Positions 3,332 to 25,502 of a stretch of 64,000 nucleotides of DNA are shown here, piece after piece. The translations under genes were made by a program, and so were the position numbers. The notes beneath the pieces were generated by a model that was not told where the DNA came from, did no database searches, and saw nothing but the letters and a program-made list of their open reading frames with translations. Position 1 is the first letter of the stretch; every line of letters begins with the position of its first letter. Origin of the DNA: Streptosporangium carneum. Lineage in GTDB: Bacteria; Actinomycetota; Actinomycetes; Streptosporangiales; Streptosporangiaceae. The stretch spans positions 1 to 64,000 of the forward strand of contig NZ_BSEV01000023.1 in assembly GCF_027922005.1 (NCBI RefSeq), written 5' to 3'.

Positions 3332-3340
3332 GAGCAGCGC

Positions 3341-4275: not shown

Positions 4276-5241
4276 TCACGCTTCGGTGGCCGGGATCGAG
4301 CCCAGGCGGCCTGCCTTGTAGTCGTCGAAGGCCTTGACGAGTTCTTCGTGGGTGTTCATGACGAAGGGGCCGTAGTGGGCGACCGGCTCGCCGATGGGTT
4401 CGCCGCCGAGGACGATGACCTCCAGGCCCGAGGTGGGTGAGGCGGTGATGGTGATGGTCTCGGCGTCGGTGGTCAGGCCGGGGCGGTTGCCGAAGCCCTC
4501 GAAGACGGCGAGCTGCCCGCTGGTGATGGGTGCCTTCTCCGTGCCGACGCTGCCCTTGCCGGACAGGGCGTAGGTCAGGGCGTTGAAGTCCTTGCGCCAG
4601 GGCATGGTGAGCCGGGCGCCGGGGCTGATGCTGGCGTGGAGCAGGGTGATCGGGGTGTGGGTGGAGCCGGGGCCTGCGTGTCCGGCCACGTCGCCGGCGA
4701 TCAGGCGGACCAGGGCGCCGCCGTCGTGGCTGCTGAGCAGGGAGACCTTGGCGCGTCCGATGTCCTGGTACTTCGGGGTGAGCATCTTCTCCTTGGAGGG
4801 CAGGTTCACCCAGAGCTGGATGCCGTGGAAGAGGCCGCCCTGCTGGACGAGCCACTCCGGCGGCGCCTCGATGTGCAACAGGCCAGATCCAGCAGTCATC
4901 CATTGAGTGTCGCCGTCCGCGATGACGCCGCCGCCGCCGTGGGAGTCCTGGTGGACGAAGGTGCCGTCGATGATGTAGGTGACGGTCTCGAAGCCGCGGT
5001 GCGGGTGCCAGGGGGTGCCCTTGGGCTCGCCCGGCGCGTAGTCCACCTCGCCCATCTGGTCCATCATGATGAACGGGTCGAGGTACTCGAGCTTGATAGC
5101 CGCCAGGGCCTTGCGGACGGGGAAGCCCTCGCCCTCGAAGCCGCTGGGCGCGGTCTCGACGGCGAGCACCTTCCTGTCGATCCCCAGGTCCTGCGGGATG
5201 CGGGGCAGGGCGAGGATGTTGTCTACGGTTACGGCGGGCAT
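4276..5241 (-). CDS. pirin family protein (intact, rebuilt copy)
   Basis: 321-aa bicupin of the pirin family; members bind Fe in the N-terminal cupin and some act as quercetinases. The metal-binding region is visible in TPWHPHRGFETVTYIIDG (two His, Glu) plus a further His in the HQDSHGGGG segment. ATG at 5241 has GGGAGC upstream. The gene is mosaic: the 3' part (4276 to about 4883) is resident chromosome, while the 5' part and promoter (to about 5331) are a near-duplicate of the segment beside the integrase at 24917-25340, with about six residue differences over 120. Around the joint the codons become AT-richer (CAATGG, ACTGCT, TCT), as if brought in by the island. Insertion has therefore left a full-length gene. 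Confidence 0.93.
   Translation of the reverse strand: MPAVTVDNILALPRIPQDLGIDRKVLAVETAPSGFEGEGFPVRKALAAIKLEYLDPFIMMDQMGEVDYAPGEPKGTPWHPHRGFETVTYIIDGTFVHQDSHGGGGVIADGDTQWMTAGSGLLHIEAPPEWLVQQGGLFHGIQLWVNLPSKEKMLTPKYQDIGRAKVSLLSSHDGGALVRLIAGDVAGHAGPGSTHTPITLLHASISPGARLTMPWRKDFNALTYALSGKGSVGTEKAPITSGQLAVFEGFGNRPGLTTDAETITITASPTSGLEVIVLGGEPIGEPVAHYGPFVMNTHEELVKAFDDYKAGRLGSIPATEA
4876..4892. other. left attachment junction (attL-type)
   Basis: Resident pirin 3' half joins island-borne pirin 5' half here, inside the codons for the conserved MTAGSGLLHIE segment. The presumed central dinucleotide is CC (plus strand) at 4883-4884. Placement rests on alignment with the truncated copy at 24917-25274. Confidence 0.6.
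5005..5038. other. phiC31 attB-like sequence in intact pirin
   Basis: This 34-bp stretch matches the published minimal phiC31 attB at about 31 of 34 positions from memory, including the TT core in GTGCCCTTGGGCT. phiC31 is known to use a pirin-type gene as its target. The resident integrase does not seem to use this point, since its own joint is about 140 bp away. Confidence 0.6.
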
Positions 5242-5273
5242 GTGGTGCTCCCTTCCTGTGGAGTTCACCGTCG

Positions 5274-5296
5274 TCAACTCAGTTGATATTTCAACT
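5274..5296 (-). promoter_or_regulatory. three-half-site operator upstream of pirin
   Basis: Half-sites TCAACT (5274-5279), AGTTGA (5281-5286) and TCAACT (5291-5296) form two overlapping palindromes with 1-bp and 4-bp spacers, about 35 bp upstream of the pirin start. The arrangement looks like a MarR- or HxlR-type operator. The same array is upstream of the truncated copy at 25306-25328. Confidence 0.65.
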
Positions 5297-5331
5297 ATTC
5301 CGGATGGTGAGTCGGGATGTCGAACCGCTGT

Positions 5332-5971
5332 GCACCTAGGCAGCCACTGTCTCCCTGTCAGGGCAGACACCTGCTTGAACGGTCTGACGGGGCACCCCTC
5401 TTCGGGGCCGTTTAAGGGTGGGGGCACCCTGGTGAAGGCGCCAAACGTGCTGCACGCCGAAACCGAGGCGGGAGGCTGTACCAAGAGGCGGTACTTCTCG
5501 CGCGCACGGGTCCGTGCGTGCTGCCACTCTGAAACTGGTGGTCGGTGTCTTCAGCGCTTCTTGCCCAAACCTGGCAGGCCGCTCGACATCGTGCGCACGC
5601 TCACCGACGGCCCCTCGGGCGGGACAGCGTGTCTCTTGGTGGGTGGCGGTGTGCTGTGCGGTTCCTCCAGGGGAGGCAACATAGGCGGCGTGCCTCCCGC
5701 GGGCTCCAAGACCAAGGAGCCGGAAGCGCTGCAAACCTTGGTTGATTTAGGTATGGGATGGGAGTACAGGCGGCCGGTGCGCTGATTGGCGCGTGTGCTG
5801 GCTCCGCATTCCGAACAAAGGTGATCCACCGCATCGGGGTTACGCACCATGAGCTCCACCCTTGTGCGGCAGCGCCTGCTCGTCCAGAGCCTATTTCATG
5901 TCGAGCCTCTCGGCGGTAATGCATGGTCGAGTGCCCGTCCAACGTCGTTTCCTGATCGTGTCCATGTCTTG
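5332..5971. other. left-end stretch without a convincing gene
   Basis: Homology to the right pirin copy ends near 5331. From there to 5971 several short frames are open but none has a ribosome site or recognisable protein; GC-rich hairpins such as CCCCTCTTCGGGG (about 5396-5408) are present. The frame of the next gene is open from ATG 5849, so that gene may begin there. Confidence 0.4.
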
Positions 5972-6310
5972 ATGGGCACTAACGCCAGGTATATGGACAT
6001 GCTGGTCGGACTTGGCGGAGGTGACCCGCAGCAGGTCAGGCGAGGGTGGGCGCTCCTTTTGCAAGAACGAATCAACCGCACTGCGTTGACCCTGAGAGAA
6101 GCTACCGACGAGGGTGAGATACTGGTGGGGGTGATCGGTCCGTCGATGCTGGTTGCCGCGAACATGCTCAACGTGGTCAATCGGCGAAATATGGTTCCCG
6201 ATATGGTGGCCCAAGTCTTCGATACAGCTGAACGTAACCTGGAAGCTGTGCATAACACCCTTAGCGAGGTACGTGAGATTTTTCGTGAGCGTGCCTTTCC
6301 TGACCTATAA
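5972..6310 (+). CDS. hypothetical protein
   Basis: 112-aa protein from ATG 5972; the frame also contains ATG 5849, which would add 41 residues of unlikely composition. I do not recognise it. It is predicted mostly alpha-helical, with a hydrophobic middle (LVGVIGPSMLVAANMLNVV, too short and polar for a sure membrane span) and a charged C-terminus (VREIFRERAF). No clear ribosome site. It faces the NB-ARC/pentapeptide gene tail to tail, 76 bp apart, near the left end of the island. It may be the remnant of a larger gene. Confidence 0.4.
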   Translation: MGTNARYMDMLVGLGGGDPQQVRRGWALLLQERINRTALTLREATDEGEILVGVIGPSMLVAANMLNVVNRRNMVPDMVAQVFDTAERNLEAVHNTLSEVREIFRERAFPDL

Positions 6311-6386
6311 GGTTCCCTGCTGCGGACACAATCCCACGACATAGCGCGACGGTAGCAGCCCTACCTGCTGCGGCCTCCGGCGCAGC

Positions 6387-9044
6387 TCACATGTCATCAC
6401 CCTCATCGGAAGCTTCGTCGATAGTGGTGCCGGTTTCTGGAGCCTGTTCCTGCTCTGTGCCGGCTTGGGCGCCGTCCCCACTGGACGATTCCGTTGCGGT
6501 ATCGTCCCACTGGATTCGCCCGAAGCCGTCCTTTTGTCGAATGACCTTCCAGCCAGTTGGCAAGCAGTGCTCACCATCCGGCTGTGACAATCGGGCATCA
6601 GTGAACCAGGTGTCCCCTCCGTAGGTCACCTCGCTGAACACAGCCTTCCCTATAAAGGCCACCCCGCTGAAGCTGACGCTCTCCATAAAGGTCACCCTGT
6701 CGAACCGGGCGCACTCTTGAAAGGTCGCCCCGTCGAACCGAGTGTCCCCTCCGTAGGTCACCTCGCTGAACACAGCCTTCCTCGTGAAGGTCGTCCCGTC
6801 GAACCAAGCGTCCCTCGTAAAGGTCATCCCGCTAAACACGGCGTTCCCTATGAAGGTCACCCCGCTGAACTGTGCTTCGGTAATACGACATGCAACAAAG
6901 TCAAGGTCGATGAGGGTGGCGCCGGTCAGATCAAGTCGGATGTCGGGCCAGAACCGGGCTGGGGGCGAGGTCAGGCGCTGCCAACCTTGGTGCTTAGCAA
7001 GTGAGGAGTAACGCAGGTGATCGGCTAGGACGCGCTGCGCGGTGAGGCGGACCTGGCGTTCTTCGTACGGATCGTGCCCAGTGGCAGAGGTGGAGACTCT
7101 AGCGACGGTGGCGCATGGGACGGTGTGGCCCAGATCGCTCTGTGCGGCGGCCTTGGGTGGGGTGTAGGGCATGCGCAGGTAGGCGCAGATCACGTTGATG
7201 ACGGTCTGGCGATGGGGCGAGTTGTCCTGGGCCAGGCGCTCCAGCGCGTACAAGCCAGCCAGGCGGACGGCGGCCTTGTCATGGCCGAGCTGCTCGACGG
7301 CCTTGGTATACAGCTCGGTGATGTGGTGGTTACTGCTGGCATTCAGGTAGATGATGGTCTTGACCATGCCGCCGGAGCGGGGAGTCAGTATGGCTCGGGC
7401 GTGGGGCAGCAACTGAGCATAGGCAGGCCAGGAGGTGCTGTCTGTCGGGTCATCGGGCAGGGCCGCATCGATGAGCGCAGCTGCGCGCTTGCGGATGGCA
7501 GTGCGCTGGCGCTTGGACAGGTCAGTGCGGATAACTGCTTGGACCAAGCGGTGCATGATGACCGCATCACCATCGGCCGAGCGACTGATCATGTTATAGG
7601 AGGTCAGCACCCGTAGCGCCTCGGCCACCGCGACCTCGTTGGCGTCTTGCATGCCGTACAGCACCTGGCAGGGCAGCTGCTCAGGGGCGTAGCAGGCCAG
7701 CAGATGCAGCATCTTGGTGGCCAGAGGATTGATCTGGGTGATGCGGGTGATGGTGAGCGTCAGTGAGCGGCCTACCACTTCCAGTACTCCTGGTCGGCCA
7801 CCCGCAGAGACAGGGGCAGTGCGCAACAGCCGCAGGTAACGGGTCAGATCCATGCCAGGCACAGTGGCGATGTAGGCACCGACGTGCCGCAACGCCAGCG
7901 GCAGCCCATCCAGTTCCTTGGCGAGCTCTTCAGCCAGCGTTTGATCCCAGGCGGCGGCTTCGCCGATCGTCTCGCGAAGCATTGTCACAGCCGTGGAGTG
8001 CTCTAGCACTTCCAGCTGTACCACGGTGCCCGCGTCGGTCCACTCGGTACTGCGGCGGCTGGTGATCAGGACATGGCCGGTGTTCAGCCGCCCTAGATAC
8101 GGCTGAACATGAGCAGCCTCTTCGACATTGTCGAATACCAGTAGCCACCGAGAGTGGGCGTTGAGCCAGGCCAGCGCCCAGTCCTCGGCTTCTTGAGCCA
8201 ACGCTTGGGCAGCGGCCGCCGAGGCCGTGCCAGCGCACAAGGCCCGACATAGCTCGACCAAGCCCACTCGCACGGCCCCCGACGTTTCGGCGTCCATCCA
8301 CCAAATGAGGTCGTAATCGTGGCGGTGGATGGTGGCGTGTTGCAGAACTAGTTCGGTCTTGCCGATGCCACCTAACCCGACCACGGCTTGAGCGACCATC
8401 CCTGGCCCCTGTTTCAATGCCTGGGCCAACTGCCGCAACTGCGGCTCGCGACCGATGAACACTGCCGAGGCCCGCCGTGGCAAGCTGAACAAACTGTTCG
8501 CAGGCACTTGGGTTACCGGCGGCAGTCCCGGCCCGGCTGCGGCCATCCCCACGGGCACATTGGTCAGGGTGATCGACGCATTTCTACCGGTGACGATGAC
8601 GCCGGGATTATTGCCTCCCAGCGCAGCCGCACCTCGCCCGGCCGCCTCCGCTCGGGTGGTGGCCGTGCCAGTGACCGAGCCGTGGAAGACGCCGCCAGAG
8701 AGGTCGATGTGGTCTCCGCTGTAGGCGCGCGTCGGCACGCCGTTGTCCGCAGGCGGTGCTACGGCTGAAAGCGACGGGCTACGGAGCTGCAGCAGAAGGG
8801 CGGCGCCAGCGATGAGCAGTCCAACTAGGCCAGTGAACATGCTGATCACGCTGGCGCGTTTGTCCAGCACGTCAAGGACTTCGTCCGGTATGTGCAGCGG
8901 GTCGGCGAAGAATCCGACCACTCCGGCTCCCAGTAGTCCCAGCGAGACGAGAATTACCACGGCGGTCACAGCGCGACGAGTACGGGAGCGGTGTGGGGCC
9001 TGGGACGCGGTCTCAGGACCTGACGACGGGAGAGGGGGCGGCAC
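6387..9044 (-). CDS. membrane-anchored NB-ARC (STAND) NTPase fused to pentapeptide repeats
   Basis: 885 aa. Order: two membrane segments (about 25-46 and 67-86), a low-complexity linker with a GVIVTGRNASITLTN stretch, an NB-ARC ATPase with Walker A at 223-230 (GLGGIGKT) and Walker B-like LLVFDN, the GLPLAL motif typical of AP-ATPases, a winged-helix-like segment, a helical module (about 570-620, LYTKAVEQLGHDKAAVRLAGLYALERLAQDN), and pentapeptide repeats (about 715-815, e.g. AVFSGMTF, ARFDRVTF) with an acidic tail. STAND NTPases act as signal-gated switches in apoptosis-like and antiphage systems. The C-terminal half is shared with the neighbouring stand-alone pentapeptide gene, so this is a fusion of two normally separate proteins. 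Start GTG 9044; no strong ribosome site. Confidence 0.85.
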   Translation of the reverse strand: MPPPLPSSGPETASQAPHRSRTRRAVTAVVILVSLGLLGAGVVGFFADPLHIPDEVLDVLDKRASVISMFTGLVGLLIAGAALLLQLRSPSLSAVAPPADNGVPTRAYSGDHIDLSGGVFHGSVTGTATTRAEAAGRGAAALGGNNPGVIVTGRNASITLTNVPVGMAAAGPGLPPVTQVPANSLFSLPRRASAVFIGREPQLRQLAQALKQGPGMVAQAVVGLGGIGKTELVLQHATIHRHDYDLIWWMDAETSGAVRVGLVELCRALCAGTASAAAAQALAQEAEDWALAWLNAHSRWLLVFDNVEEAAHVQPYLGRLNTGHVLITSRRSTEWTDAGTVVQLEVLEHSTAVTMLRETIGEAAAWDQTLAEELAKELDGLPLALRHVGAYIATVPGMDLTRYLRLLRTAPVSAGGRPGVLEVVGRSLTLTITRITQINPLATKMLHLLACYAPEQLPCQVLYGMQDANEVAVAEALRVLTSYNMISRSADGDAVIMHRLVQAVIRTDLSKRQRTAIRKRAAALIDAALPDDPTDSTSWPAYAQLLPHARAILTPRSGGMVKTIIYLNASSNHHITELYTKAVEQLGHDKAAVRLAGLYALERLAQDNSPHRQTVINVICAYLRMPYTPPKAAAQSDLGHTVPCATVARVSTSATGHDPYEERQVRLTAQRVLADHLRYSSLAKHQGWQRLTSPPARFWPDIRLDLTGATLIDLDFVACRITEAQFSGVTFIGNAVFSGMTFTRDAWFDGTTFTRKAVFSEVTYGGDTRFDGATFQECARFDRVTFMESVSFSGVAFIGKAVFSEVTYGGDTWFTDARLSQPDGEHCLPTGWKVIRQKDGFGRIQWDDTATESSSGDGAQAGTEQEQAPETGTTIDEASDEGDDM

Positions 9045-9440
9045 GTTTTCCAGCTTGGCGCCAGCTGATGGCAGGTGGGGGAGGGTAGCCGATTTGTTAC
9101 CGATTACCGGATAGGGCGAACGCTCTTTCTATCTACGTCTCACCCCCGATGGCGGGAGGTATCGGGGGTGCGCAGGCGCAGCAGTCCAGCTGTTGGGACC
9201 CCTAAGTTTCCGACAGTTAGCGCCCAAAACTCGGCTAGAAGGTACGTAAGTTCACTTATCGTAATTCAGGCACGAGAATTCACACTCTCGCCACTGGTCC
9301 GAGGTGTTTGGCGGCGACCAGGACGTTGGTCAGCGAGCAGCGCTTTCGGCCAGCGCTCCTGTGTGGTTCGCCGGGGGACATCTACGGTGTCGCTGATCCT
9401 CCCGCAATGCTGGAGGGTCTCGGACTGGTACCGCCTCTGA
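9045..9440. other. 396-bp spacer, presumed promoter of the NB-ARC gene
   Basis: No supported gene on either strand. It must hold the promoter for the minus-strand NB-ARC gene starting at 9044 and the end of the pentapeptide transcript from the right. The region 9196-9300 is less GC-rich than its surroundings. Confidence 0.35.
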
Positions 9441-10820
9441 TCAGGAATTTTGGGCCAAGCCGCTTCCTACCTCCTCTTGGGCCAGGTGACTGGTCCCATC
9501 TGGTGTCGTTTCCAGTCGCCACCCATCAGGCCACACATGTGCGGCCGCAGGATCGACTACCACCATTCTGTTGGACCAGACGTTTCCGGCAAAGATCACC
9601 TTGTCGAACCAGGCGCGCTCGGCGAAGGTCGCCCCGAAGAACCAGGCGTCCTCGGTGAAGGCCGCCGCCTCAAATCGGGCTACGCTGCGGAAGGTCGCCA
9701 TGCGGAACCCGGCTTCTCCTGCGAAGGTTACTTCGCCGAACCGGGCAGTTTCGGCGAAGGTTGCCTTGTCGAACCCAGCGTGCTTACAGAAGGTTGCCCG
9801 CACGAAATCGGCGACCTCGGCGAAAGTCGCCTTATCGAACCAGGCGATCTCGCGGAAGGTCGCCTCGTAGAACCTGGCTGCCCCAGTGAAGGCTGTCCCG
9901 CGGAAGACAGTGTCTTCGTAGAAGACTGCTCGCTCGAAGCCGGCGTCGGTGACGCGACCATTGGTCAGGTTGAAATCGATGAGGGTGGCGCCGGTCAAGT
10001 CCAGACTCATTCCCTCCCAGAAGGCCGGTGCGGCCGGGAGCGTGGAGGGTTGGTCCGCGGGGCGGTCGTCGCGCAGGTGGACGCTGAGAATACGCTGAGC
10101 GGTCAGCCGCACCTGCAGTTCGCCTTCCTGGCCACCGCTTTCCTGCCGAGACGCGGGCTCGGCAAGCAGGAGTATGCCGGCGCGGGCGGCCTGGTGACGG
10201 CGCCGAGCCGCTCGCAACGCGACCTTGCGATCTCGCTCGGGATTAGGGGCGTGTGCGACCTTGGGTGGGGTGTAGGGCATGCGCAGGTAGGCACAGATCA
10301 GGTTGATGATGGTTTGGCGATGGGGCGGGTTGTCCTGGGCCAGGCGCTCCAGCGCGTACAAGCCAGCCAGGCGGACGGCGGCCTTGTCATGGCCGAGCTG
10401 CTCGGCAGCTTTGGTATATAGGTCGGTCACTCGCCGCTCGGTGGCGTCGTACTTGGTGTTGTCGGCCACCTGCTCAGCCAACGCGGCGTTGCGTTCAGCG
10501 AGGTAGGCGGTGACGTGCGCGGTGTGCTCCTGATGGCGTTGGCGGCGGAAGGCGAGCATCAGTGTGATCGCCGCGCCGACCCCAGCGCCAGCCGCCAGCG
10601 CGGTCTGAACCGCGCCCTGACGAATAGTGGCCTCGGCCGCGCTCCACCCGGCGGCTAGCAGCAGCCAAGCTACCCCGCCGACCACACCGCCCACCAGCAG
10701 TGTGATCGGCATGATCCACCATGCGGCAGGCCTGGGAGTGCGCAACTGCGGCGGAACTATTTTTGCCGCGACGACAGGCACATCGGCTCCGGAGGGGCGG
10801 TGAGGCGGAAATAACGGCAT
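9441..10820 (-). CDS. membrane pentapeptide-repeat protein
   Basis: 459 aa from ATG 10820 (PLFPPHRPSG follows); ATG 10829 is also possible, and the frame is open to 10910. Two membrane segments lie near the N-terminus (WWIMPITLLVGGVVGGVAWLLL and the AALAAGAGVGAAITLML region), then a helical linker, the LYTKAAEQLGHDKAAVRLAGLYALERLAQDN module, and about 15 pentapeptide-type units (ARFYEATF, AWFDKATF, ARFGEVTF) forming a right-handed quadrilateral beta-helix. This architecture is common in actinomycetes; function is unknown. The module is nearly identical in DNA to the NB-ARC fusion next door, with 75 bp identical between 10330-10404 and 7222-7296, which points to recent duplication or gene conversion. 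Confidence 0.85.
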   Translation of the reverse strand: MPLFPPHRPSGADVPVVAAKIVPPQLRTPRPAAWWIMPITLLVGGVVGGVAWLLLAAGWSAAEATIRQGAVQTALAAGAGVGAAITLMLAFRRQRHQEHTAHVTAYLAERNAALAEQVADNTKYDATERRVTDLYTKAAEQLGHDKAAVRLAGLYALERLAQDNPPHRQTIINLICAYLRMPYTPPKVAHAPNPERDRKVALRAARRRHQAARAGILLLAEPASRQESGGQEGELQVRLTAQRILSVHLRDDRPADQPSTLPAAPAFWEGMSLDLTGATLIDFNLTNGRVTDAGFERAVFYEDTVFRGTAFTGAARFYEATFREIAWFDKATFAEVADFVRATFCKHAGFDKATFAETARFGEVTFAGEAGFRMATFRSVARFEAAAFTEDAWFFGATFAERAWFDKVIFAGNVWSNRMVVVDPAAAHVWPDGWRLETTPDGTSHLAQEEVGSGLAQNS

Positions 10821-11028
10821 GCTCTCCATTCCAGCGGTCTGCGGCCCGCGCCTAACCGAATGGCGTCTGATCGTTACAAAGCGGATCGGACAGCACCGAT
10901 ATTCTGTCAAGTATCACTGGCTGGTGTCCGCCGCACCTGGGCTGCTGAAACGGCAGCACATCCTGCCCTACTGCCAAAGTCTGTACCGATCCTCCTTGGA
11001 GACCAGTAGGCGCATGCAAGCTCCACGG

Positions 11029-12523: not shown

Positions 12524-12590
12524 GGCCTCCTGCCCATTGAGGTCGGGAAACCTGCGGCAGGAGGCCCTCCATCCCCTACAGGAGGGGATG
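12524..12590 (-). terminator. tandem hairpins ending the sigma-factor operon
   Basis: Perfect 11-bp stem GGCCTCCTGCC (12524-12534) with GGCAGGAGGCC (12556-12566), then a second 8-bp stem CATCCCCT / AGGGGATG (about 12570-12590). They lie just past the stop at 12647 of the last gene of the leftward operon, so they probably terminate it; the T-run is weak. Confidence 0.6.
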
Positions 12591-12646
12591 CACAGGTAAA
12601 GCCTCACCAACGGTGAACAGCATCCACAGGGCCCATATCACAAACC

Positions 12647-15175: not shown

Positions 15176-16249
15176 GTGACCGAGATCGCCCGATACGCCG
15201 AGGCGCGAATCGTCCCCACCCTCGCCGCCGAAGTGTCCATCCACGCCGAGGCCGATCTCCACCTCAGCCACACCGCCCAGGCCGCTATCGCCGCGGGAAT
15301 CCCGGGGGCGACCCGTCGCGCGTACGCCACCGACTGGAAGACGTTCGCCGCCTGGTGCGACCGGCAGGGCCGAGTGTCGATGCCCGCCACCGTGCAGACC
15401 GTCACCGAATACGTCACTCACTTGACGGTGACCCCCTCGGCGCGCACCGGCCGCCCGCTGTCGCCCTCCAGCATCGAACGAGCCTTGGCCGCCATCCGGA
15501 CCATGCACTCGGCAGCCGAGGCCGTCCAGCCAGAAACCAAGGCCGCCCGTAAGGTGCTGAGCGGCTACCGCGAGCGCCTGGCCCTGACACACGACCCGGC
15601 CGCACAGACCCGCAAGGCCGATCCCGCCGTCCCCGGAGCGCTGCGCGCCATGCTGGCCACCCTCGACCGGGCGACGCTGGCAGGAATGCGGGACGCCGCC
15701 CTCCTGCTGCTCGGCTACGCCTGCGCCGCCCGCGTCTCCGAGCTGGTCGCCCTGGACATCTCCAATGTCACCGAAACCCCTGACGGATTGCTGGTTACGA
15801 TCTACCGCCGCAAGATCAAGGCGTTCACCGAGGTCGCCGTTCCCTATGGCAGCAACCCGGCAACCTGCCCCGTCCGCACGGTACGTGCTCTGATCACCGC
15901 GATGGCCAGCCAGGGACGTACGACTGGACCGCTTTTGGTCCGTATCGACCGTCACGGCCGCATCGCCCCGCCGATGATGCGCAAGGGGCTTCCCATTGGT
16001 GACCCGCTCGGCCGCATGACCTCCGAGGCCGCCGCTGATGTCGTGACCCGCATCGCCGAAGCGGCCGGACTGGACGGTAGATGGACCGGCCACTCTCTGC
16101 GCCGGGGCTTCGCCACTGCCGCCCGACGGGCTGGAGCCAACTTGGAGCGGATCGGCCGTCATGGCGGTTGGGCCGACGGCTCCCGCGCGCTGCTCGGCTA
16201 CCTCGAAGAGGGAGACCGCTGGACCGATAATCCAGTCACGGGGCTGTAG
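15176..16249 (+). CDS. tyrosine recombinase/integrase
   Basis: 357 aa. The N-terminal SAM-like core-binding domain (about 45-130, ATRRAYATDWKTFAAWC) is followed by the catalytic domain with the full set of active residues: Arg186 (AARVSE), Lys213 or Lys215, His306 and Arg309 (HSLRRG), His329 (RHGGW) and the nucleophile Tyr342 (LLGYLEE). Such solitary recombinases move integrons-like cassettes, small islands or resolve dimers. It starts with GTG 15176. It lies in the middle of the serine-integrase island, so it may belong to a nested older element; a broken recombinase fragment lies just downstream on the other strand. Confidence 0.9.
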   Translation: MTEIARYAEARIVPTLAAEVSIHAEADLHLSHTAQAAIAAGIPGATRRAYATDWKTFAAWCDRQGRVSMPATVQTVTEYVTHLTVTPSARTGRPLSPSSIERALAAIRTMHSAAEAVQPETKAARKVLSGYRERLALTHDPAAQTRKADPAVPGALRAMLATLDRATLAGMRDAALLLLGYACAARVSELVALDISNVTETPDGLLVTIYRRKIKAFTEVAVPYGSNPATCPVRTVRALITAMASQGRTTGPLLVRIDRHGRIAPPMMRKGLPIGDPLGRMTSEAAADVVTRIAEAAGLDGRWTGHSLRRGFATAARRAGANLERIGRHGGWADGSRALLGYLEEGDRWTDNPVTGL

Positions 16250-16254
16250 AGCGC

Positions 16255-16929: not shown

Positions 16930-18213
16930 ATGACCATCACTGTCGATTCGTCACGTCTCTCCCTGGTGCGCGAGGAGTCCACCTACCTGGCGATCCGGAC
17001 CAGCCAGGGCGGCCGGACTGTTTACACGACGCGCATCCCGCTCGCCGACCTCTCGGTCATCCTCACCATCCCTGACCCGATCAAGCCGGACCCGGACAAC
17101 CGCAAGGTAGACATCAACCACGCCAAGGGCTTCGGCCAGTACCTTGCCGACAACCCTGGCTGGGTGGCTCCGGCCCTCCTCATCCGCGACACCGGCGGTT
17201 GTCGTTTCGAGCCGATCAGTGAAGACGGCTCGATCGGTTACCTTACCGTTCCGTGGTCCATTGGCGGCATCGGACGCCTGATCACGATTGACGGCCAGCA
17301 CCGCATCCTCGGCGTCCATTTGGAGAAGAAGCGCATCACGGACGAGGTCTCCCGCGTCGACCGGGAGATCCACCGCGCCAACGAGGCTAAGAAGGCGAAG
17401 CTGGAGCAGGAACGTGAGGCCTTGATCGGCCGAATGCAGCGACTCAAGGACGAGTTTGTCGGCATTGACATCTACGTTGAGCCTGACGGCGTCAAGGGGC
17501 AGCAGATGTTCGTCGACGTTGCGGACAACGCCAAGGGCATCTCCGGCGCTGTCCGGGCCCGCTTCGACACCTCACGTATCGCCAACCGCACGCTCAGCGA
17601 CATCGTCACCCACCCTCTCTTCCTGGGCAAGATTGACATCGAGCGGGACCGGATGACCCTGGCCAACCGCAACCTGATGGGTGCCAAGCACGTTGCCGAC
17701 ATCACGCGGGCCGTTATCGCTGGCCCCGGTGGCCGCGTCAGCAAAAAGGTTGAGTCGCTGACCGATAACGAGGTCATCGAGAGTGTCCGCGGCTTCCTGG
17801 ATGTCATCTCCGTCGCTTTCACTGCGCTCGCGGAGATCACCGAGGAGGATGTCGACAACTACGACCCCTCGCTCTCCGAGAAGAAGAAGAACGAGCCGCC
17901 GGCGCCCCCCACTAAGGCCATGAGGCTGCGTGAGTCCTCGCTCCTGGGCTCGGTGGGCATGCTCCGGGTCATCGGCGGCGTCTACCGCAACCTGCGCGAG
18001 GACGGAGCCGAGGACGGTGACATCCAGGAATTCTTCAAGCGGCTTGACCGGCATATGGCCGCACCGGTCACCGAGGACAGCCTCTGGCGTACTACGGCTG
18101 CGAACGAGGACTTCGAGCCGAACGCCTCCGCCCCGATCATGCGTCAGCAGAACGTAGTACACCTGACCAAGGTGATTACTGACTGGTACAAGAAGCCCCC
18201 GGCCGCCATCTGA
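16930..18213 (+). CDS. DGQHR-domain (DndB-like) protein
   Basis: 427 aa. The signature DGQHR is at residues 121-125 (LITIDGQHRILG), followed by a charged coiled-coil (about 140-180), FVDVADNAKGISGAVRARFD, and an RTTAANEDF-type segment near the end. DGQHR proteins are ParB-like-fold relatives that include DndB, the regulator of DNA phosphorothioation; they are common on actinomycete mobile elements. No dndA, C, D or E genes are present here, so a Dnd role is not supported. Transcription probably ends at the hairpin 18232-18258. An upstream palindrome suggests repression by an island regulator. Confidence 0.85.
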   Translation: MTITVDSSRLSLVREESTYLAIRTSQGGRTVYTTRIPLADLSVILTIPDPIKPDPDNRKVDINHAKGFGQYLADNPGWVAPALLIRDTGGCRFEPISEDGSIGYLTVPWSIGGIGRLITIDGQHRILGVHLEKKRITDEVSRVDREIHRANEAKKAKLEQEREALIGRMQRLKDEFVGIDIYVEPDGVKGQQMFVDVADNAKGISGAVRARFDTSRIANRTLSDIVTHPLFLGKIDIERDRMTLANRNLMGAKHVADITRAVIAGPGGRVSKKVESLTDNEVIESVRGFLDVISVAFTALAEITEEDVDNYDPSLSEKKKNEPPAPPTKAMRLRESSLLGSVGMLRVIGGVYRNLREDGAEDGDIQEFFKRLDRHMAAPVTEDSLWRTTAANEDFEPNASAPIMRQQNVVHLTKVITDWYKKPPAAI

Positions 18214-18231
18214 TCCACCAGCAGCACCGGG

Positions 18232-18258
18232 GCCCCTCCATATCTCACGCGGAGGGGC
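18232..18258 (+). terminator. terminator of the DGQHR gene
   Basis: Stem GCCCCTCC (18232-18239) and GGAGGGGC (18251-18258), 11-nt loop, 19 bp past the stop, followed by TCCTTCC. Confidence 0.75.
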
Positions 18259-18878: not shown

Positions 18879-20918
18879 GTGACCGCTGAAGTGTTATCCG
18901 AGTATCCGGATCCGCCTACACCCGACACTGTCGACCGCCTGGTCGAGGCCGCGTTGGCTACTGATGGCATCAATGTGCCCCGCGAGGCGCTGACGGCCGC
19001 ATTTGTCTACGTTGCCGAGCCGGTCGAGCACCTAATCACTAGCGAACGAGGCCGCGAACAAATCCACCCCTCTCGCCTGCGCCCCATTCGTGCCGGCGGC
19101 GAAGACGCCTTGGAGCTTTCCCTGCGGCTGCTTGGCTGTGCCGGTAGTACCTGGGAACGTAACGAGCGCAACGACACTTATTGGGCCTCCCCGGCCGACC
19201 CGGCCTCGGCCACCGCAAAGTGGATGCTTCCGCCCATCGAGGTCTGGCATGGTCCGGACGGCAAACCAACAGCCGCGCTGAGCGTCACAATGACGAGTGC
19301 CGAGCGCGTTGTCGAGGTGGTCAAGCGCTCCGCGGAACTGCTCGCCGAAGGCGACGGCCGTCGCGGCTACGATCTCACCGCCGACCTGCTGCTGAGCGGG
19401 CAGGAGGACTCCTGCATGATGGTCGCCCAGGTCTATCGCACCCCTGAGGGCGATTTCTGGGCCTGGCCCACCGTCAAGGGCAACAACCGGACGAAGAGTC
19501 GCCATCAGATCCTGAACACCAACCAGACGGCGCTGCTCACGGCGCCGGACGTGACTGCTGCCCTTCAGTTGTGGGTGGACGAGCGCAATGCTGAGCTGAA
19601 GCATGCCGATTCAGATGAGTACTCGGCGCGACTCGCGCTCCAGGTCGCCGTCGTGGAGACCCGGCTCGTTGTCGGTTGCACCAAGCCCGAACTGCTGTAC
19701 CAGACGGTGCAGACTGGGAATCGGCGCGACCACATCCACGCAAACTTGGAATTCACGGCAAGCAATCAGGACCGCGCGATCGGCCGTCGTGTCTTGGAGG
19801 AGTACCGGGTCGCCGGGATCCTCGACGACACCGTGTTCGGGGTGCTCGCTGGAGACCTGCCGATCACACGGTTGCGCGAGTGTCCACCCGATGCTGGCGT
19901 CTGTGAGCAGCGAGACCTGCGCTGCATGCTGTTGCTCGCTCAATTCTTCCCTGTCGCAGGAGACAGCCGCCGCCGTCCTCTGATCCGCAAAGCGATGGCG
20001 GAGCCTTACGGCGAGTTGCTGAACTCACAGCACACGACCGAGCGGTTGCGGGCCTACTCTGCGCTGTGCTCGGTGAGCTGGCCAGAGGCGTGGAACCCGC
20101 GTGTGGACGACAACACCGTCCCAGTTGTCAATGCCCGGCGTGGCGTCACACTCAGCGGTAAGAGCGCCGTGCAGTTGCTGACTGTCGCGGACAAAGACGC
20201 CGATGCGTTCGATGAGCTGCTCCGTTATCGGGCGCCACAGTGGCTGGCCGCGTTCAAGCTCGCCGACGCCGATCGCGGTTCCATGGGCGCCCAGGCTAAC
20301 CGCGGCGCAGACGACCAGTCCGGGGCCAGCGTTCGGGCCCGGCGCGGTATCCCGGATGTGCTCGCTGCCATGAACGCCCGACGGGCGCAGGCAGTGGGGC
20401 TGATGCGCGAAATGGCCACCGCGATGGAGGAGGGGCGTGCTCCGCGGCGCGTTGACCCTTTAGGGCACGCCGACGCCGCTGGCATGGTCGCCGATCAGGC
20501 GTGGTTCGACGACGCTTTCCCCAAGGGAAAGGGCCTGCGCCTGCCTAAGCCTCCGTACACCGAACCCTCCAAGCCTCCGCACACCGCACCTTCGTCCGCG
20601 CCGACGGCTGGCAGGCAGGTGCAGCAGCCGTTGTTTCGTGGGGCGCCGCCGCCCAGCGACCGTGAACTCGCCGATAGAAGGAAGGCGGGTGTACGAAATC
20701 TGCTGGACCAGATCGAGTCCCTCACCAGGGATTTGGTGACGCGGGTCGATGACGCACGCAGCCATGCTGCCGCAGCTGGCATGATCCCGGCTTGGGAGGC
20801 GAACGAATCCGAGCGCCTCAACGTCCAGGCAGGAAACATCATTGAGAGCTTGAAGCATGCCGTGGAGGGCACTCGGCCGCCCGAAGAGGGCCTCGCGATT
20901 AGGCCGCTACCGCGATGA
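18879..20918 (+). CDS. large unknown protein with a KGNNR motif, partner of the DGQHR gene
   Basis: 679 aa from GTG 18879, with CAGGAG 11 bp upstream; TTG 18843 is the outermost option. No family is recognised. Around residues 200-215 it has WAWPTVKGNNRTKSRHQI, which recalls the DGQHR/ParB-type loop (G-x-x-R), so a distant ParB-like fold is possible. A central helical region has two Cys (CPPDAGVCEQRDLRC), and the last 150 residues are a Pro-rich linker and a coiled helix. Downstream of and same strand as the DGQHR gene; the two may work together. Codon use is slightly less GC-biased than in the chromosome. Confidence 0.7.
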   Translation: MTAEVLSEYPDPPTPDTVDRLVEAALATDGINVPREALTAAFVYVAEPVEHLITSERGREQIHPSRLRPIRAGGEDALELSLRLLGCAGSTWERNERNDTYWASPADPASATAKWMLPPIEVWHGPDGKPTAALSVTMTSAERVVEVVKRSAELLAEGDGRRGYDLTADLLLSGQEDSCMMVAQVYRTPEGDFWAWPTVKGNNRTKSRHQILNTNQTALLTAPDVTAALQLWVDERNAELKHADSDEYSARLALQVAVVETRLVVGCTKPELLYQTVQTGNRRDHIHANLEFTASNQDRAIGRRVLEEYRVAGILDDTVFGVLAGDLPITRLRECPPDAGVCEQRDLRCMLLLAQFFPVAGDSRRRPLIRKAMAEPYGELLNSQHTTERLRAYSALCSVSWPEAWNPRVDDNTVPVVNARRGVTLSGKSAVQLLTVADKDADAFDELLRYRAPQWLAAFKLADADRGSMGAQANRGADDQSGASVRARRGIPDVLAAMNARRAQAVGLMREMATAMEEGRAPRRVDPLGHADAAGMVADQAWFDDAFPKGKGLRLPKPPYTEPSKPPHTAPSSAPTAGRQVQQPLFRGAPPPSDRELADRRKAGVRNLLDQIESLTRDLVTRVDDARSHAAAAGMIPAWEANESERLNVQAGNIIESLKHAVEGTRPPEEGLAIRPLPR

Positions 20919-21323
20919 CACCAGCCTGCCTGCGCACAACTGTCGGCTGCGCGTAGGCAGGCCGGGTGCTTCGAGTTCGGATCACAACAGAGCTTCCGGT
21001 CTCAGAGAGGGAAGGCCGCGCCACGAGCAACCGACCTCCTAGTCTGAGGCACTCTGAGGCGCTGCCCGTCGGCAGATCGGAACCCGGCCGTCATGACTAC
21101 AGAAGCCAACACGAGGAGATGCTGCTGATCCTGAGACAAGAGCATCCTGCCACGGTGTGAGATGCCCTAGAACCTGCTGGTCAGTGCCCCTGTGTCACGA
21201 GCCGTGAGGTTCTACACCGCGCTCGCAGCTACCCGGCCTCCAATGGGGGCCTTGCGAGCGCGGTCTGATCTTGGAGGTGTCAAACCGGATGGAACTGGGA
21301 TGTTCAGGACTATGCTGCCCGAT
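20919..21323. other. 405-bp gap without a supported gene
   Basis: Open frames here are short, lack ribosome sites and do not look like protein. Nothing else stands out. Confidence 0.35.
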
Positions 21324-21569
21324 ATGGGCACGTCTCCGGACGCCGCCCAGCACTGCCAGGCCGCCACCTGCGGCCAACCGGCCGCCTTCTCTCTGCGCTA
21401 TCAGGAACGTGGGCAACTCATCAGGTTCGTGCTCTGCGAACCCGACCTTGATGTCAAGAGCTGGGATGTAGGCCAGTCACCTATGGTCGGCTCGCGACCA
21501 TACCCGCGGTTTCCCGTCCGGAGCGTCGGCCGATCATGTTCGAGGCAGGCGACGGGGACGAGGAGTTGA
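21324..21569 (+). CDS. small Cys-containing hypothetical protein
   Basis: 81 aa from ATG 21324; the frame is open from 21192. The segment CQAATCGQPAAFSLRYQERGQLIRFVLC looks like a small zinc-ribbon or beta hairpin (Cys-x4-Cys and a later Cys). The C-terminal third is low in complexity and may be out of frame with the original protein. No clear ribosome site. Function unknown. Confidence 0.35.
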   Translation: MGTSPDAAQHCQAATCGQPAAFSLRYQERGQLIRFVLCEPDLDVKSWDVGQSPMVGSRPYPRFPVRSVGRSCSRQATGTRS

Positions 21570-21802
21570 AGATTGACTACATCTTCTTCGCCAGCTCGGA
21601 TTCCTGGAGCCGCCTCCTTGGCGGGCCGCGACCGTTCGAGTGGCCGAGTAAGGCCACTGTGCTGCTCCTCGGGGCGAGAACCGTGCCCAAGATCCAGAAA
21701 CCGTGGGACCTACTCTCGAGAGCAGTAGGTATCACGGCTGCCCCCTGAGCCGGTGCCCGGCCTCGGCCCTGACTCTCTGAGCCCTCCCAGCCTGGGGCCC
21801 CG

Positions 21803-21836
21803 GGCGCGCTTGCGCGCCTGGTCTACGAAGTAGACC
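21803..21836. repeat. two adjacent perfect hairpins
   Basis: GGCGCGC / GCGCGCC (21803-21809 and 21812-21818, 2-nt loop) is followed directly by GGTCTAC / GTAGACC (21820-21826 and 21830-21836, 3-nt loop). An AT- and pyrimidine-rich tract follows (21838-21860). Could be a terminator, a nick or origin structure. Confidence 0.6.
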
Positions 21837-21864
21837 TCTCCTAATACTCTCCTCTCTTTATGGA

Positions 21865-21945
21865 GGACATCTGTGACACATCTGGGAGGACATCCCTGAC
21901 ACGGTGACCGGACATCTCTGACCCAGATGAGGGCACCGGTGACAC
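21865..21945. repeat. four iteron-like direct repeats, 22-23 bp apart
   Basis: GGACATCTGTGACAC (21865), GGACATCCCTGACAC (21888), GGACATCTCTGACCC (21910) and a diverged GGCACCGGTGACAC (21932) share GGACATC-NN-TGAC. The 22-23 bp spacing is two helical turns, as in Rep-binding iterons. A rival reading is the end of an IS481-type insertion sequence, whose termini carry similar TGTCA-GATGTCC words; no transposase is nearby. Confidence 0.65.
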
Positions 21946-22021
21946 AACAGACGAGGCTGAGATCCCGGCCAGCGCGACCTGCAGACCCTACAAAATCCGC
22001 CGCCTGCATACCAACTCGGAA

Positions 22022-22038
22022 TTGTCGACTCTCGACAA
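22022..22038. promoter_or_regulatory. palindrome TTGTCGA-CTC-TCGACAA
   Basis: Perfect 7-bp arms at 22022-22028 and 22032-22038. Same arms as the site at 16815-16833, different spacer. It lies between the direct repeats and the Rep-like gene, about 165 bp before its start. Confidence 0.65.
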
Positions 22039-22147
22039 ATATCCCAACTTGATTGCGATGCGCGCCGTCGTGAAAGCATCATCTGTCATGATCACGATTG
22101 ACACTGAAAAAGATCATCCTGCTACGCTGAATCGAAGACGGAAAAGA

Positions 22148-22176
22148 AGCCCGCGCGCTCTGCCAAGCGCCGGGCT
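22148..22176 (+). promoter_or_regulatory. leader hairpin of the Rep-like gene
   Basis: AGCCCGCGCGCT (22148-22159) pairs with AGCGCCGGGCT (22166-22176) with one bulged base and a 6-nt loop, 28 bp before the ATG. It may act as an attenuator or mRNA stabiliser. Confidence 0.45.
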
Positions 22177-22203
22177 GGTGAGACGAAGTCTGGAGCTTCA
22201 TCT

Positions 22204-23115
22204 ATGTCCATCGTAGCAGGCGAAAAGCAGGACAAGCGGTATTCGCAGCTCCCTGCGACCGTCAGCCACTCGCGACACCTTCGCCCCTTGGATGTCATCG
22301 TCTGGGCATACATCGACTGCCGAAAATGGCGAGATGCCGGTTCCGTTGTCTGGCCTCTTCTCAAGGCTGATGAGATCGCCAATGCGCTATCCGTGTCAAC
22401 CAGCTCGGTGAATCGCGCTGTCCGTAATCTCCGAAAATTCGGCTTCTTGGAAACGATGCGGACGCAGACTGGTAACCGCATGATCCTCGGAGCGCGGGCC
22501 AATGCTCCTGATACGTTTCGCGGCCGTCAGGCTGGAGATCCGGAGAAGGATTTCACACGCCTTCCCTTGTTGCTCATCACGTCAGGCGTTGAGAAGTTGA
22601 GCCTGCTCGTGTGGGTCCTCCTCGACCGCAGGAAGGGGGCTGGCAAGACGGTCTCCCTCACCCAGGCGACGCTGGCCAAGATGCTTCAGGTGGATGTTCG
22701 CACGGTCCGCCGAGCGATTGAAGAGCTCCAGAAATGCGGCCTCGTCGCGGTGTACCGCCAGGGGTACAAGCGTGCAAACTGGTATTCACTGAGCAGTGAG
22801 CTGGCGATGCGCAAGGAACCGCATCCCATGGAGAGCAATCCTGTTAATCGAATTTTCTATGCTTGGGCACGTGCTGCCTTCAAGGAGGTGGAGCGCGCGC
22901 GAGGGTGGGTATCTGAAAACCCGGAAAAGTTCCGAGAAATGCTTGGGCTGATCCGGGAGGCCCTCCCTCTGTATAGTGAGACTGACATCAGGAGCGTGAT
23001 TTACCTGGCAGTGAAGGGGCGTGATCCAGCTGGGCTGTTTTACGCGCTTCTCCTTGAAATGGTGGACGATGCCTATGGCGAGGCGAACGGGCCTGCCTTG
23101 CCTGAAGCGTCTTGA
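22204..23115 (+). CDS. twin winged-helix protein, Rep-like
   Basis: 303 aa. Two similar winged helix-turn-helix units are seen: residues about 55-95 (LKADEIANALSVSTSSVNRAVRNLRKFGFLE) and about 155-200 (LTQATLAKMLQVDVRTVRRAIEELQKCGLVAVYRQG). The C-terminal 90 residues are helical. This double wHTH plan is that of plasmid RepA/DnaD-type initiators and also of some phage replication or regulatory proteins. It lies just after four direct repeats and a palindrome, the usual order for an origin with its initiator, so a replication role is plausible. GGAG about 9 bp before ATG 22204 sets the start. G+C is visibly lower than in flanking chromosome. Confidence 0.7.
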   Translation: MSIVAGEKQDKRYSQLPATVSHSRHLRPLDVIVWAYIDCRKWRDAGSVVWPLLKADEIANALSVSTSSVNRAVRNLRKFGFLETMRTQTGNRMILGARANAPDTFRGRQAGDPEKDFTRLPLLLITSGVEKLSLLVWVLLDRRKGAGKTVSLTQATLAKMLQVDVRTVRRAIEELQKCGLVAVYRQGYKRANWYSLSSELAMRKEPHPMESNPVNRIFYAWARAAFKEVERARGWVSENPEKFREMLGLIREALPLYSETDIRSVIYLAVKGRDPAGLFYALLLEMVDDAYGEANGPALPEAS

Positions 23116-23238
23116 AGTGTTGCCAGGCCAACGGCGGTGCCGTCCAGTGCGGGCCGCTGATATCACGGCAGAGTTGGGATGCGTCAACTAAATCGCGCGA
23201 ATTGACATCGAAGTTGGGATGCGGTTTAGCGTCGGGGC

Positions 23239-23394
23239 GTGGCAGAGATTGACTGGTCGAAGCATCCAAGTGAGTGCACCGAGGCGGAGCGATGGAACCG
23301 CTTCTACTCGGTGCTGGCGATGGGGCTTGTCGAAGCGTGGAGGGAAGGTCGTCTGGTCGACGGCCAGGCGGCCGACACCCCTGCGGCTGCCTAG
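23239..23394 (+). CDS. small acidic protein beside the integrase
   Basis: 51 aa from GTG 23239: begins VAEIDWSKHPSECTEAERW and ends GQAADTPAAA. It is a compact amphipathic protein with many Trp, Glu and Arg, fitting a real small gene. Its TAG and the integrase TAG share the palindrome CTAG (23391-23394), so the two genes meet tail to tail. Small proteins next to serine integrases are sometimes recombination directionality factors; here that is only a guess. Confidence 0.55.
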   Translation: MAEIDWSKHPSECTEAERWNRFYSVLAMGLVEAWREGRLVDGQAADTPAAA

Positions 23395-24836
23395 TACGGG
23401 ACGACTTCCCACCGTCCACCTGGATGGCCGGCCGGGTGAAGGATGATTTCCCTGATCACCTGCTTGAGGGCCTGCCTCTTCCTGTCATCTGAGAGGCTTG
23501 GCCAGGCGTTACGCAGGTCCTTGTAGAAGGTCACCGGAACCTCGGTCCGATCTTCGCGAAGCTCCTCCAGAGTGATCCTAGCTTGCCGCTGCTCGCCCTC
23601 GCGTTTGGCCTTCCGCTCCAAGTACTTGGCCTTCGACATTCCGCCGGACTCGTAGAGGTCGAGAAGCCGATCCAGGGCGGCGCCGGTCTCAGAGATCACC
23701 TTCTCCAGTCGCCGAATCTCGGCCGCCTCCCGGTTCACGGTCGCGGCCTTCTTCGCCAGACGTTCGACCTTCCCGCCGTCGGTTGCCCGCTCTTCCAGCC
23801 AGGCCAGGACGGCTGCTTCGCCGAGGTGAAGGAGGCTGTATACGCCCTTGCACTGCTTGGTGACTAGGCCCTGACACCGGAACATGACCTCTCCGGCCTT
23901 ACGCGGTGTGCCGGTGGCGCCGCACTTGAACTTGAAGCATCGGCCGCACATGATCAGTCCGGACAGCGAGTACTTCGCCTTCGGGTCGGCCCAGTTTCGC
24001 CCGAGGCTGGCCAGCCGCTTCCGCTTGTACGCCTCCCAGAGTTCGGCCGAGATGAGCGGATTGTGGGCGCCGGGGAACCAGTCCCAGTTGTCGAACCTCT
24101 TGGACTTACTCTCCGGCTTGCGCTTCCGGATCAGCCCTGCTGCGAAACCGGAGTCCATGATCATTATCCAGCGGCTGTTATCCAGGATGTCGTCGTTCGG
24201 TGCACGGATGCCGACCTCGGCCATGTCCCGTACCACGGCCCGGAGCTTCTCCCCGGCTACCCAGCGCTCGTACACCTCTGCCAGGGCCGGGCCGTTCAGC
24301 TCCTCGTCGGGTCGGAATCCTTTGCCGTCCTTCACGTAGCCGAACCGCGCGTGACCGTTGTGGGGGAGGCCCATGCGTAGCCGTACGGCGTGAGTGTCCT
24401 TCCATGAATCGGAGATCATGTCCGACTGGAGCTCGGCGACGCTGAGCATCTGGTTCCTGCTGAAGCGGCCCATGGTGGTCCGGCCGTCCCCGGGCTCGGT
24501 AGCGGCGATGACCTCACCGCCGGCTTCTTCCTCCAGTTCATGGATGTTGGCCAACGACAGGCGCATGTTCCGGCCGAAGCGATTCCACTTCCACACTCCG
24601 ACGACTTCGTAGTCTCCTCGCCGGACCTCCTGGATCATCTGTCTGATCTTGCGCTCGGCGAATCCGCGGCCGGACTTGTCCAGATCCATCACGACGTCGA
24701 GCAGTTCGATGTTCTCTCGCTCGAACAGTCTCCGGATGGCATCCTCTTGGATCTCCGGGGAGAAGAGCTCTTCGCGGCCCATGATGGCCGACACCCTGAC
24801 GTACCCTTTGCCGCGACGACGGCGCTGCTGAACCAT
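23391..24836 (-). CDS. large serine recombinase/integrase
   Basis: 481 aa. The resolvase-type N-terminal domain has the nucleophile Ser16 in YVRVS and the DLDKSGRGFAERKIRQMIQE and WKWNRFGRN motifs; a recombinase domain follows (about 165-260), then a zinc ribbon (MCGRCFKFKC ... FRCQGLVTKQC) and a coiled coil (about 350-430). It is shorter than the 605-aa phiC31 enzyme and not closely like it. The gene begins about 80 bp inside the proposed right end, transcribed inward, as expected of an element integrase. It should have inserted the island into pirin. After insertion it lies directly downstream of the resident pirin promoter, which could drive it. Confidence 0.93.
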   Translation of the reverse strand: MVQQRRRRGKGYVRVSAIMGREELFSPEIQEDAIRRLFERENIELLDVVMDLDKSGRGFAERKIRQMIQEVRRGDYEVVGVWKWNRFGRNMRLSLANIHELEEEAGGEVIAATEPGDGRTTMGRFSRNQMLSVAELQSDMISDSWKDTHAVRLRMGLPHNGHARFGYVKDGKGFRPDEELNGPALAEVYERWVAGEKLRAVVRDMAEVGIRAPNDDILDNSRWIMIMDSGFAAGLIRKRKPESKSKRFDNWDWFPGAHNPLISAELWEAYKRKRLASLGRNWADPKAKYSLSGLIMCGRCFKFKCGATGTPRKAGEVMFRCQGLVTKQCKGVYSLLHLGEAAVLAWLEERATDGGKVERLAKKAATVNREAAEIRRLEKVISETGAALDRLLDLYESGGMSKAKYLERKAKREGEQRQARITLEELREDRTEVPVTFYKDLRNAWPSLSDDRKRQALKQVIREIILHPAGHPGGRWEVVPY

Positions 24837-24907
24837 GGGGGAACTAAGTACCTCTATGTGCCTGAACGAGGGGTTGTGTCCCGGAGGGTATCAGCGATCT
24901 AGTTCTT

Positions 24908-24924
24908 TGGAGTACCCTGCACCG
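24908..24924. other. right attachment junction (attR-type)
   Basis: Island sequence (TTTGGAGTAC) meets resident pirin (CTGCACCGGCGG) here; the presumed crossover dinucleotide is CC at 24916-24917 on the plus strand. The element arm outside it, 24837-24915, separates the junction from the integrase gene. Confidence 0.6.
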
Positions 24925-25037
24925 GCGGTCATCCACTGGGTGTCGCCGTCCGCGATGACCCCGCCGCCGCCGTGGGAGTCCTGGTGGACGAACGTGCCGT
25001 CGATGATGTAGGTGACGGTCTCGAAGCCGCGGTGCGG

Positions 25038-25071
25038 GTGCCACGGCGTGCCCTTGGGCTCGCCCGGCGCG
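25038..25071. other. phiC31 attB-like sequence in truncated pirin
   Basis: Second copy of the 34-bp phiC31 attB-like segment, again about 31 of 34 matches as recalled. The chromosome therefore carries two such sites about 20 kb apart in the same orientation. Confidence 0.6.
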
Positions 25072-25305
25072 TAGTCCACCTCGCCCATCTGGTCCATCAT
25101 GATGAACGGGTCGAGGTACTCGGGCTTGATGGTGGCCAGGGCCTTGCGGACCGGGAAGCCCTCGCCCTCGAAGCCGCTCGGCGCGGTCTCGACGGCGAGC
25201 ACCTTCCGGCCGATCCCCAGGTTCTCCGGGATACGGGGCAGGGCCAGGATGTTGTCGACGGTCACGGCGGGCATGTGGTGCTCCTTCCTGTGGAGTTCAC
25301 CGTCG

Positions 25306-25328
25306 TCAACTCAGTTGATATTTCAACT
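25306..25328 (-). promoter_or_regulatory. three-half-site operator upstream of truncated pirin
   Basis: TCAACT (25306-25311), AGTTGA (25313-25318) and TCAACT (25323-25328), identical to the array at 5274-5296. This is the resident promoter region. Confidence 0.65.
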
Positions 25329-25502
25329 ATTCCGGGGGCGGCGAACCGGGACGCCGAACCGCGACGGGCCCGTCGCGATCGCCTCCTCACCACGCTGTGA
25401 GGGACGATCCCGGTCGCGCCCGGACCGCGACGTTCCGATCGGCCGGTCCCGCCGGAAAGGGCCGTACCCGTCTCGGGAACCTGCGGACGACTCGGATCCG
25501 GG

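Follow-up and report, generated by a model that had tools for sequence, protein, structure and literature searches.

Serine integrases usually break the gene that they enter. Integration of phiC31 by its large serine integrase inactivates the pirin gene SCO3798 of Streptomyces coelicolor, and the part of that report considered here makes no mention of a spare copy (PMC5937489). In the present work we describe an element of Streptosporangium carneum (assembly GCF_027922005.1) which likewise appears to have entered a pirin gene by means of a large serine integrase, whereas it does so at a site with a GG core and carries a complete second pirin gene, a different answer to insertion from the repair of a gene end. 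The stretch analyzed, referred to as the window, comprises 64,000 nucleotides of contig NZ_BSEV01000023.1 (C23), window position 1 being the contig start. We judge it likely that the resident pirin gene was broken at the GG of codon 118 when an element of at least 30.5 kb inserted there by way of its large serine integrase, and that the complete second pirin carried by the element complements the loss.

Integration of phiC31 disturbs beta-oxidation in one Streptomyces strain, a metabolic cost of the broken pirin, and restoration of the target is a property of few integration tools, of which the portion of that source considered names mu1/6 and pSAM2 (PMC12924846). As with these two, the function of the entered gene would survive integration of the element described here; in contrast, mu1/6 and pSAM2 restore the target itself whereas this element leaves it broken and carries a whole second gene. 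According to the sections covered of a streptococcal survey, all 29 integrative and conjugative elements with serine integrases disrupt protein genes, and in those located in rumA this gene and the integrase gene swap their 3' parts (PMC4701971). They resemble our element in the serine integrase, the insertion in a protein gene and the very short core, but a carried replacement is not mentioned in those sections (PMC4701971). Serine recombinases were present in just 19 of 144 actinomycete integrative and conjugative elements (AICEs), as given in the part of the source considered (PMC3218068). Within the covered portions of the open-licence literature, we recognized no description of a serine-integrase element that carries a full spare copy of its target gene, of target restoration by such integrases, or of a recoded attB.

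Results and Discussion

Structure of the insertion

Pirin was represented in the source genome by two 5' halves and two 3' halves. The displaced 5' half of the resident gene was located at the right end of the element (24924-25274, minus strand), as originally predicted, and a 3' half additional to that of the window was found on another contig of the same genome (C49:5637-6251; 89% protein identity to the one in the window). Joining C49 from position 5643 to window 24924-25274 at the GG gave an open frame of 321 codons with no gap or overlap, the 3' half of the displaced gene being C49:5643-6257. A member of the same genus (G010) served as empty-site relative; it had a single pirin match at E ≤ 1e-40, flanked by genes of C49 on one side and by genes of the window on the other. 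The 3' side of this gene was collinear with C49:6454-24409 (85-89% over long pieces) and the 5' side with pieces of the window from 38568 onward. Because the flanks of the two halves match the two sides of the G010 gene, the resident gene is identified as the split one, with its halves on two contigs. Empty-site genomes with two pirin copies had been named in the original prediction as evidence that would speak against it; G010 has one.

To the right of the resident half, around 13 kb of the window (25340-38567) had no match in the G010 stretch, which contains about 1.5 kb instead. By this comparison, the segment is another gain or loss beside the same pirin gene.

The integrase gene lies beside the right joint (23391-24836, minus strand) and encodes 481 aa with PF00239 (71.3 bits) and PF07508 (30.6 bits), both above the cut-off, in agreement with the earlier proposal of a serine-integrase element inserted in pirin. 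The crossover had been placed at a GG in a Gly codon, and this was also found: the core of attR is GG at 24922-24923 (minus strand; CC on the plus strand), that of attL is C49:5643-5644, and the codon is that of Gly118. The P' arm of attR covers 23 nt (24899-24921, minus strand). The reconstructed attP consists of 23 nt, GG and 23 nt, with symmetry at 13 of 25 flanking positions against a mean of 6.7 in shuffled sequences (P = 0.007); it is an imperfect inverted repeat around a central dinucleotide and is distinct from attB, as defines the sites of large serine integrases. The closest relative of the integrase (86% identity) was found in G085, in an element with the same GG core, and its arms coincide with those of the window element at 20 of 23 positions (P') and 15 of 23 positions (P), all 8 mismatches being transitions (P = 0.0002). 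That element has entered a thrS-like gene. Pirin and thrS are unrelated genes, and their sites had 24 of 36 positions in common within 18 nt of the core (P = 0.0000 in 20,000 shuffles). The likeness of the att arms together with that of the two sites supports both site assignments.

The right-hand part of the element extends from the contig end to the attR core (window 1-24923) and the left-hand part is C49:1-5644, so that the length is about 30.6 kb without the portion missing from the assembly. The G+C content of the element is 0.63-0.67 as compared to 0.70-0.71 outside. The starts of C49 and C23 are repeats found elsewhere in the source genome, partly at other contig ends, and for that reason it was probably an unassembled repeat that broke the assembly between them. 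Contig C54 has 97 bp in common with the C23 start and beyond these matched neither the window nor C49 nor the G085 stretch. In another relative (G225), homologues of C49:2456-2204, C49:2205-374 and window 218-3911 were found in this order, the first block being followed by 1.8 kb of other DNA and the second by 317 bp; as neighbors in that genome, the C49 part and the window part are assigned to one element. The left joint of the island had been placed at 4884-4889, which is not an integration joint; the element runs past 4276 to the contig end and on to C49.

Window 1-4275 was also considered as resident flank and rejected: nothing in the 40 kb compared from G010 matched it, and its homologue in G225 adjoins the homologue of the C49 element part.

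The spare pirin gene

The second pirin gene of the element is complete (4276-5241, minus strand) and encodes a protein of 321 aa with Pirin and Pirin_C domains. It aligned end to end with the G010 gene in one continuous alignment (4271-5322, 89.7%), and it is the sole intact member of this pirin orthologue found in the source genome, which also has a weak pirin-like gene (35%) elsewhere. Pairwise identities among copy, resident and G010 were about equal (0.912, 0.908, and 0.912, around 9% difference in each pairing). Owing to this equidistance, the spare copy probably derives from another lineage of the same clade and not from a recent duplication, and the outside origin proposed for it from the start is upheld. 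The repeat described at the two ends of the island was confirmed as a pair of direct repeats (4889-5328 and 24922-25362) which span the first 117 pirin codons and around 87 nt upstream, their identity being 93% (410/442, 3 gaps) and not 95% as first given.

The copy has an upstream region of its own, near-identical to that of the resident over about the first 60 nt upstream. A palindrome, AGTTGA-N4-TCAACT, lies upstream of the resident pirin half (25313-25328) and of the spare pirin (5281-5296), with a similar one in G010. The spare copy has an intact frame and a conserved upstream region and, if expressed, most likely supplies the lost pirin function. The events would be as follows: the integrase joins attP to the pirin site, the resident gene would be lost, and the carried whole gene would replace it by complementation, not by fusion at the joint. 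The copy may then be retained for this benefit, and complementation would make the host depend on the element, a route to addiction without a toxin.

Both pirin copies contain a stretch (window ~5005-5060 and 25038-25093) that appears to resemble phiC31 attB, and phiC31 presumably uses another site in the pirin gene than the element studied here. If this likeness is right, at least two different serine integrases would target pirin, each at its own site.

Just downstream of the spare pirin, an inverted repeat read by eye at 3990-4245 (GAAGTAGTAGGTAT / ATACCTACTACTTC, about 240 bp apart) is perhaps a small mobile repeat.

Synonymous changes at the integrase site of the spare copy

In the former attB of the spare pirin (4866-4913, minus strand; core 4889-4890), six synonymous changes to A/T occurred at 4878-4906. 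The AT-rich codons reported near the supposed joint are real, but they are present on both sides of the crossover position. All the differences between copy and resident from codons 52 to 150 are synonymous. Synonymous A/T gains of the copy, with G/C in both relatives, were 13, six of them at -16 to +11 around the crossover (P = 1.5e-5 for a fixed interval of 23 nt on each side, P = 0.001 for a scan over the gene; the att arms set the interval, the class "gain of A/T" was picked with the pattern already in view, and sites where all three sequences differ but only the copy has A/T are included). The same count at the site was 0 of 6 for the resident and 1 of 12 for G010. An alignment of 39 pirins was made from 37 loci together with the copy and the resident, another 5 of the 42 loci having yielded no full gene; in this set the copy was the most extreme for A/T-ending codons in the interval (P = 3e-4; next 0.018). 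The likeness of its site to the thrS site is down from 24/36 to 19/36.

From the coordinates, attP and the site of the copy are in direct orientation, which would give a selective reason to erase the latter: if the site were unaltered, the circle presumed to form upon excision could be split by the integrase and the copy destroyed. Selection against recombination with the carried gene would favor silent changes at that site, which may have lost its function. As far as substitutions can tell, the clustered changes suggest recoding of a rescue copy to escape the integrase of the element.

Engineered "cleave and rescue" drives break a target and carry a rescue copy altered against the attack. The element may be a natural "break and rescue" counterpart, inserting in a conserved gene and carrying a full replacement with a silently recoded att site, so that the rescue copy would be safe from recombination with the circle of the element itself or with a second element; we regard this tentatively as a serious possibility that falls somewhat short of probable. 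It differs from the engineered drives in being natural, in acting through an integrase instead of a nuclease, and in that its recoding is read from substitution statistics alone. Should the silent changes prove to block the integrase, the element would be a natural counterpart of engineered recoded-rescue drives.

Two other sources of the AT-rich patch were tried and rejected. For gene conversion, the other aligned pirins carry at most 2 of the 6 states (L037, G226). For an attP scar, a count by eye gave agreement between the left side of the copy and the P arm at 4 of 25 positions.

Several observations weigh against rescue, against recoding or against the joining of the two contigs in one element. 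In a stricter test that admitted just the sites with the same base in resident and G010, the interval contained 4 of 18 synonymous changes (P = 0.01) and the scan was not significant (P = 0.42), the scan for C>T/G>A changes only giving P = 0.009. The location of five of the six changes at positions common to the pirin and thrS sites is in favor of recoding but weak taken alone, as ~62% is expected by chance. The intact site of G010 also differs from that of the resident, at 3 positions within 20 nt, and so some variation at the site is natural. On the branch of the spare copy, nonsynonymous and synonymous changes were 21 and 18, as compared to 11 and 24 on the resident branch (Fisher P = 0.06); constraint on the copy is present but perhaps weaker than on the resident. 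Two of 16 genus members gave partial pirin matches only, one of them with a stop, and pirin may be dispensable in some cases. Nothing in the G225 stretch matched the element part of C49 beyond 2456, the G225 block contains 1.8 kb of its own DNA, and the gap between C49 and the window is unassembled, with both contigs ending in repeats. Finally, just one element of this design was seen.

Alternative explanations

If the second pirin were ordinary cargo, its identity with the target gene would be coincidental, which we consider unlikely. Mobile DNA does carry pirins, with relatives on 399 of 72,556 plasmid records and 9 of 50,697 phage records, and two pirins per genome are possible (G001 and G014). 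However, the copy belongs to the same orthologue as the target, is around 91% identical to the resident and has the same upstream region, whereas plasmid and phage pirins are more distant (60-80% for six plasmid records, <60% for the other plasmid and all the phage records). Pirin is also absent from the cargo block of G225 (G225:C50:38000-57999, L137), in which a helix-turn-helix regulator, an ATPase, a radical SAM protein, an aldo/keto reductase and a CYTH protein are found together; none was detected near the block within the 20 kb examined, and the spare pirin is accordingly not part of that block in G225.

The copy could also be the by-product of an earlier composite, that is, a whole pirin (perhaps rebuilt by fusion) caught by recombination in a former host and with no rescue role. 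The probable origin in another lineage of the same clade, the existence of fusion restoration in distant relatives and the contig-end repeats, which show that the element has been rearranged, are compatible with this. No trace of a second att arm was present at 4889, silent changes flank the crossover position to the left and to the right, and the open frame has been kept, and we regard this origin as improbable too.

According to the original prediction, the island carries a replacement 5' half only, which insertion fuses to the resident 3' half at 4884-4889 to give a full-length pirin. The repeat at both ends of 4889-24922 fits this, as do three distant integrase relatives that rebuild a SpoU-family gene in that way. 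What overturned the fusion was contig C49, outside the window, where the resident 3' half lies with its native flank and a matching P arm. The resident remainder is connected to that P arm and not to an imported gene end, homology with the G010 gene is unbroken at 4889, and the DNA left of 4276, unmatched in the same 40 kb of G010, adjoins C49-type element DNA in G225. The full-length pirin is a complete second gene inside the element while the resident one is broken, and fusion at this locus appears highly improbable.

An assembly or contamination artefact, with C49 coming from another strain of a draft genome of 184 contigs and an estimated contamination of 2.32%, deserves very little credence, as the att arms of C49 and the window fit one attP, the pirin halves fit one gene and the two element parts adjoin in G225.

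Related integrase loci

Integrase matches were collected from 341 family genomes (10 at E ≤ 1e-50) and 394 class genomes (3 at E ≤ 1e-80), the source being included in each, and in these genomes no second element with a close integrase was found in pirin. Twelve integrase loci from 11 genomes (source included) were brought into one orientation. At each locus, the 3 kb beyond the 5' end of the integrase gene, the one side taken as outside, were compared with 8.5 to 35 kb of DNA on the inside. A gene located outside was repeated inside in 4 of the 12 loci, namely this element and those of G181, G029, and G298. No repeat was found in the other 8, among which G204 and G437 had just 8.5 and 11 kb inside available. 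In G085, one weak protein match (32% over 104 aa) beyond its attL was not counted as a repeat.

The integrases of G181 (L110-L111), G029 (L112-L113), and G298 (L114-L115) are 35-38% identical to that of the window, and their elements have one target gene family, assigned by Pfam to SpoU methylases in G029. At the far joint, the reading frame of the resident part continues into an imported 3' part, and a short stretch is duplicated; by this read-through, the three elements represent target restoration by fusion. The restoration that had been proposed for a serine integrase at the pirin locus thus does occur, in 3 of the 12 loci and at a SpoU-family methylase gene, but not here. Target function is apparently preserved in these elements as it would be in ours, the difference being that in them the target itself is fused to an imported 3' part at the far joint, where a short stretch is duplicated in frame. 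Whole-gene and fusion solutions both occur among related integrases and are directly comparable. Several further partial copies of the SpoU-family gene were observed in G181.

The G085 element (L062-L063, G085:C26:62401-83318) has around 19.7 kb and splits a second thrS-like gene, with halves at C26:62401-63492 and C26:83181-83318; a full-length thrS is kept on C14, and no thrS piece was found inside the element.

Regarding more distant integrases, that of G204, from the same family as the source genome, is 56% identical to the window protein; the zinc-ribbon PF13408 was reported for it at E ≤ 0.001, and not for the integrases of the window or G085. A single-sequence search of the genome_contigs and viral_contigs collections gave no integrase relatives, whereas a three-sequence profile gave 1 locus in the former and 8 in the latter. 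The best phage match was 33% identical.

Other genes of the element

Nineteen proteins (18 from the element and one flanking) were scanned with Pfam; a family was found for 15, and five are listed as without one, among them the window proteins 5849, 11032, 13060, and 18843. No translocase of the FtsK/TraB type and no replication protein, as found in AICEs, appeared among these 19 proteins, which represent part of the ORFs of an element with a remaining assembly gap. On C49, the element encodes a histidine-kinase-like ATPase, a helix-turn-helix regulator and a GmrSD/Schlafen-domain protein. In the window, the block also present in G225 comprises a B12-binding/radical SAM protein (just below the Pfam cut-offs), an aldo/keto reductase and a CYTH protein (285-3904, plus strand). 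A sigma factor, a winged-helix protein and a DndB-like protein (16930-18213, plus strand; PF14072) were also identified. Two pentapeptide-repeat proteins, one of them with NB-ARC, are encoded at 6387-9044 and 9441-10910 (minus strand), and a related pentapeptide protein occurs in the G085 element. A tyrosine recombinase (15176-16249, plus strand; PF00589) is 70% identical to its counterpart in the G085 element, where it is kept in addition to the serine integrase.

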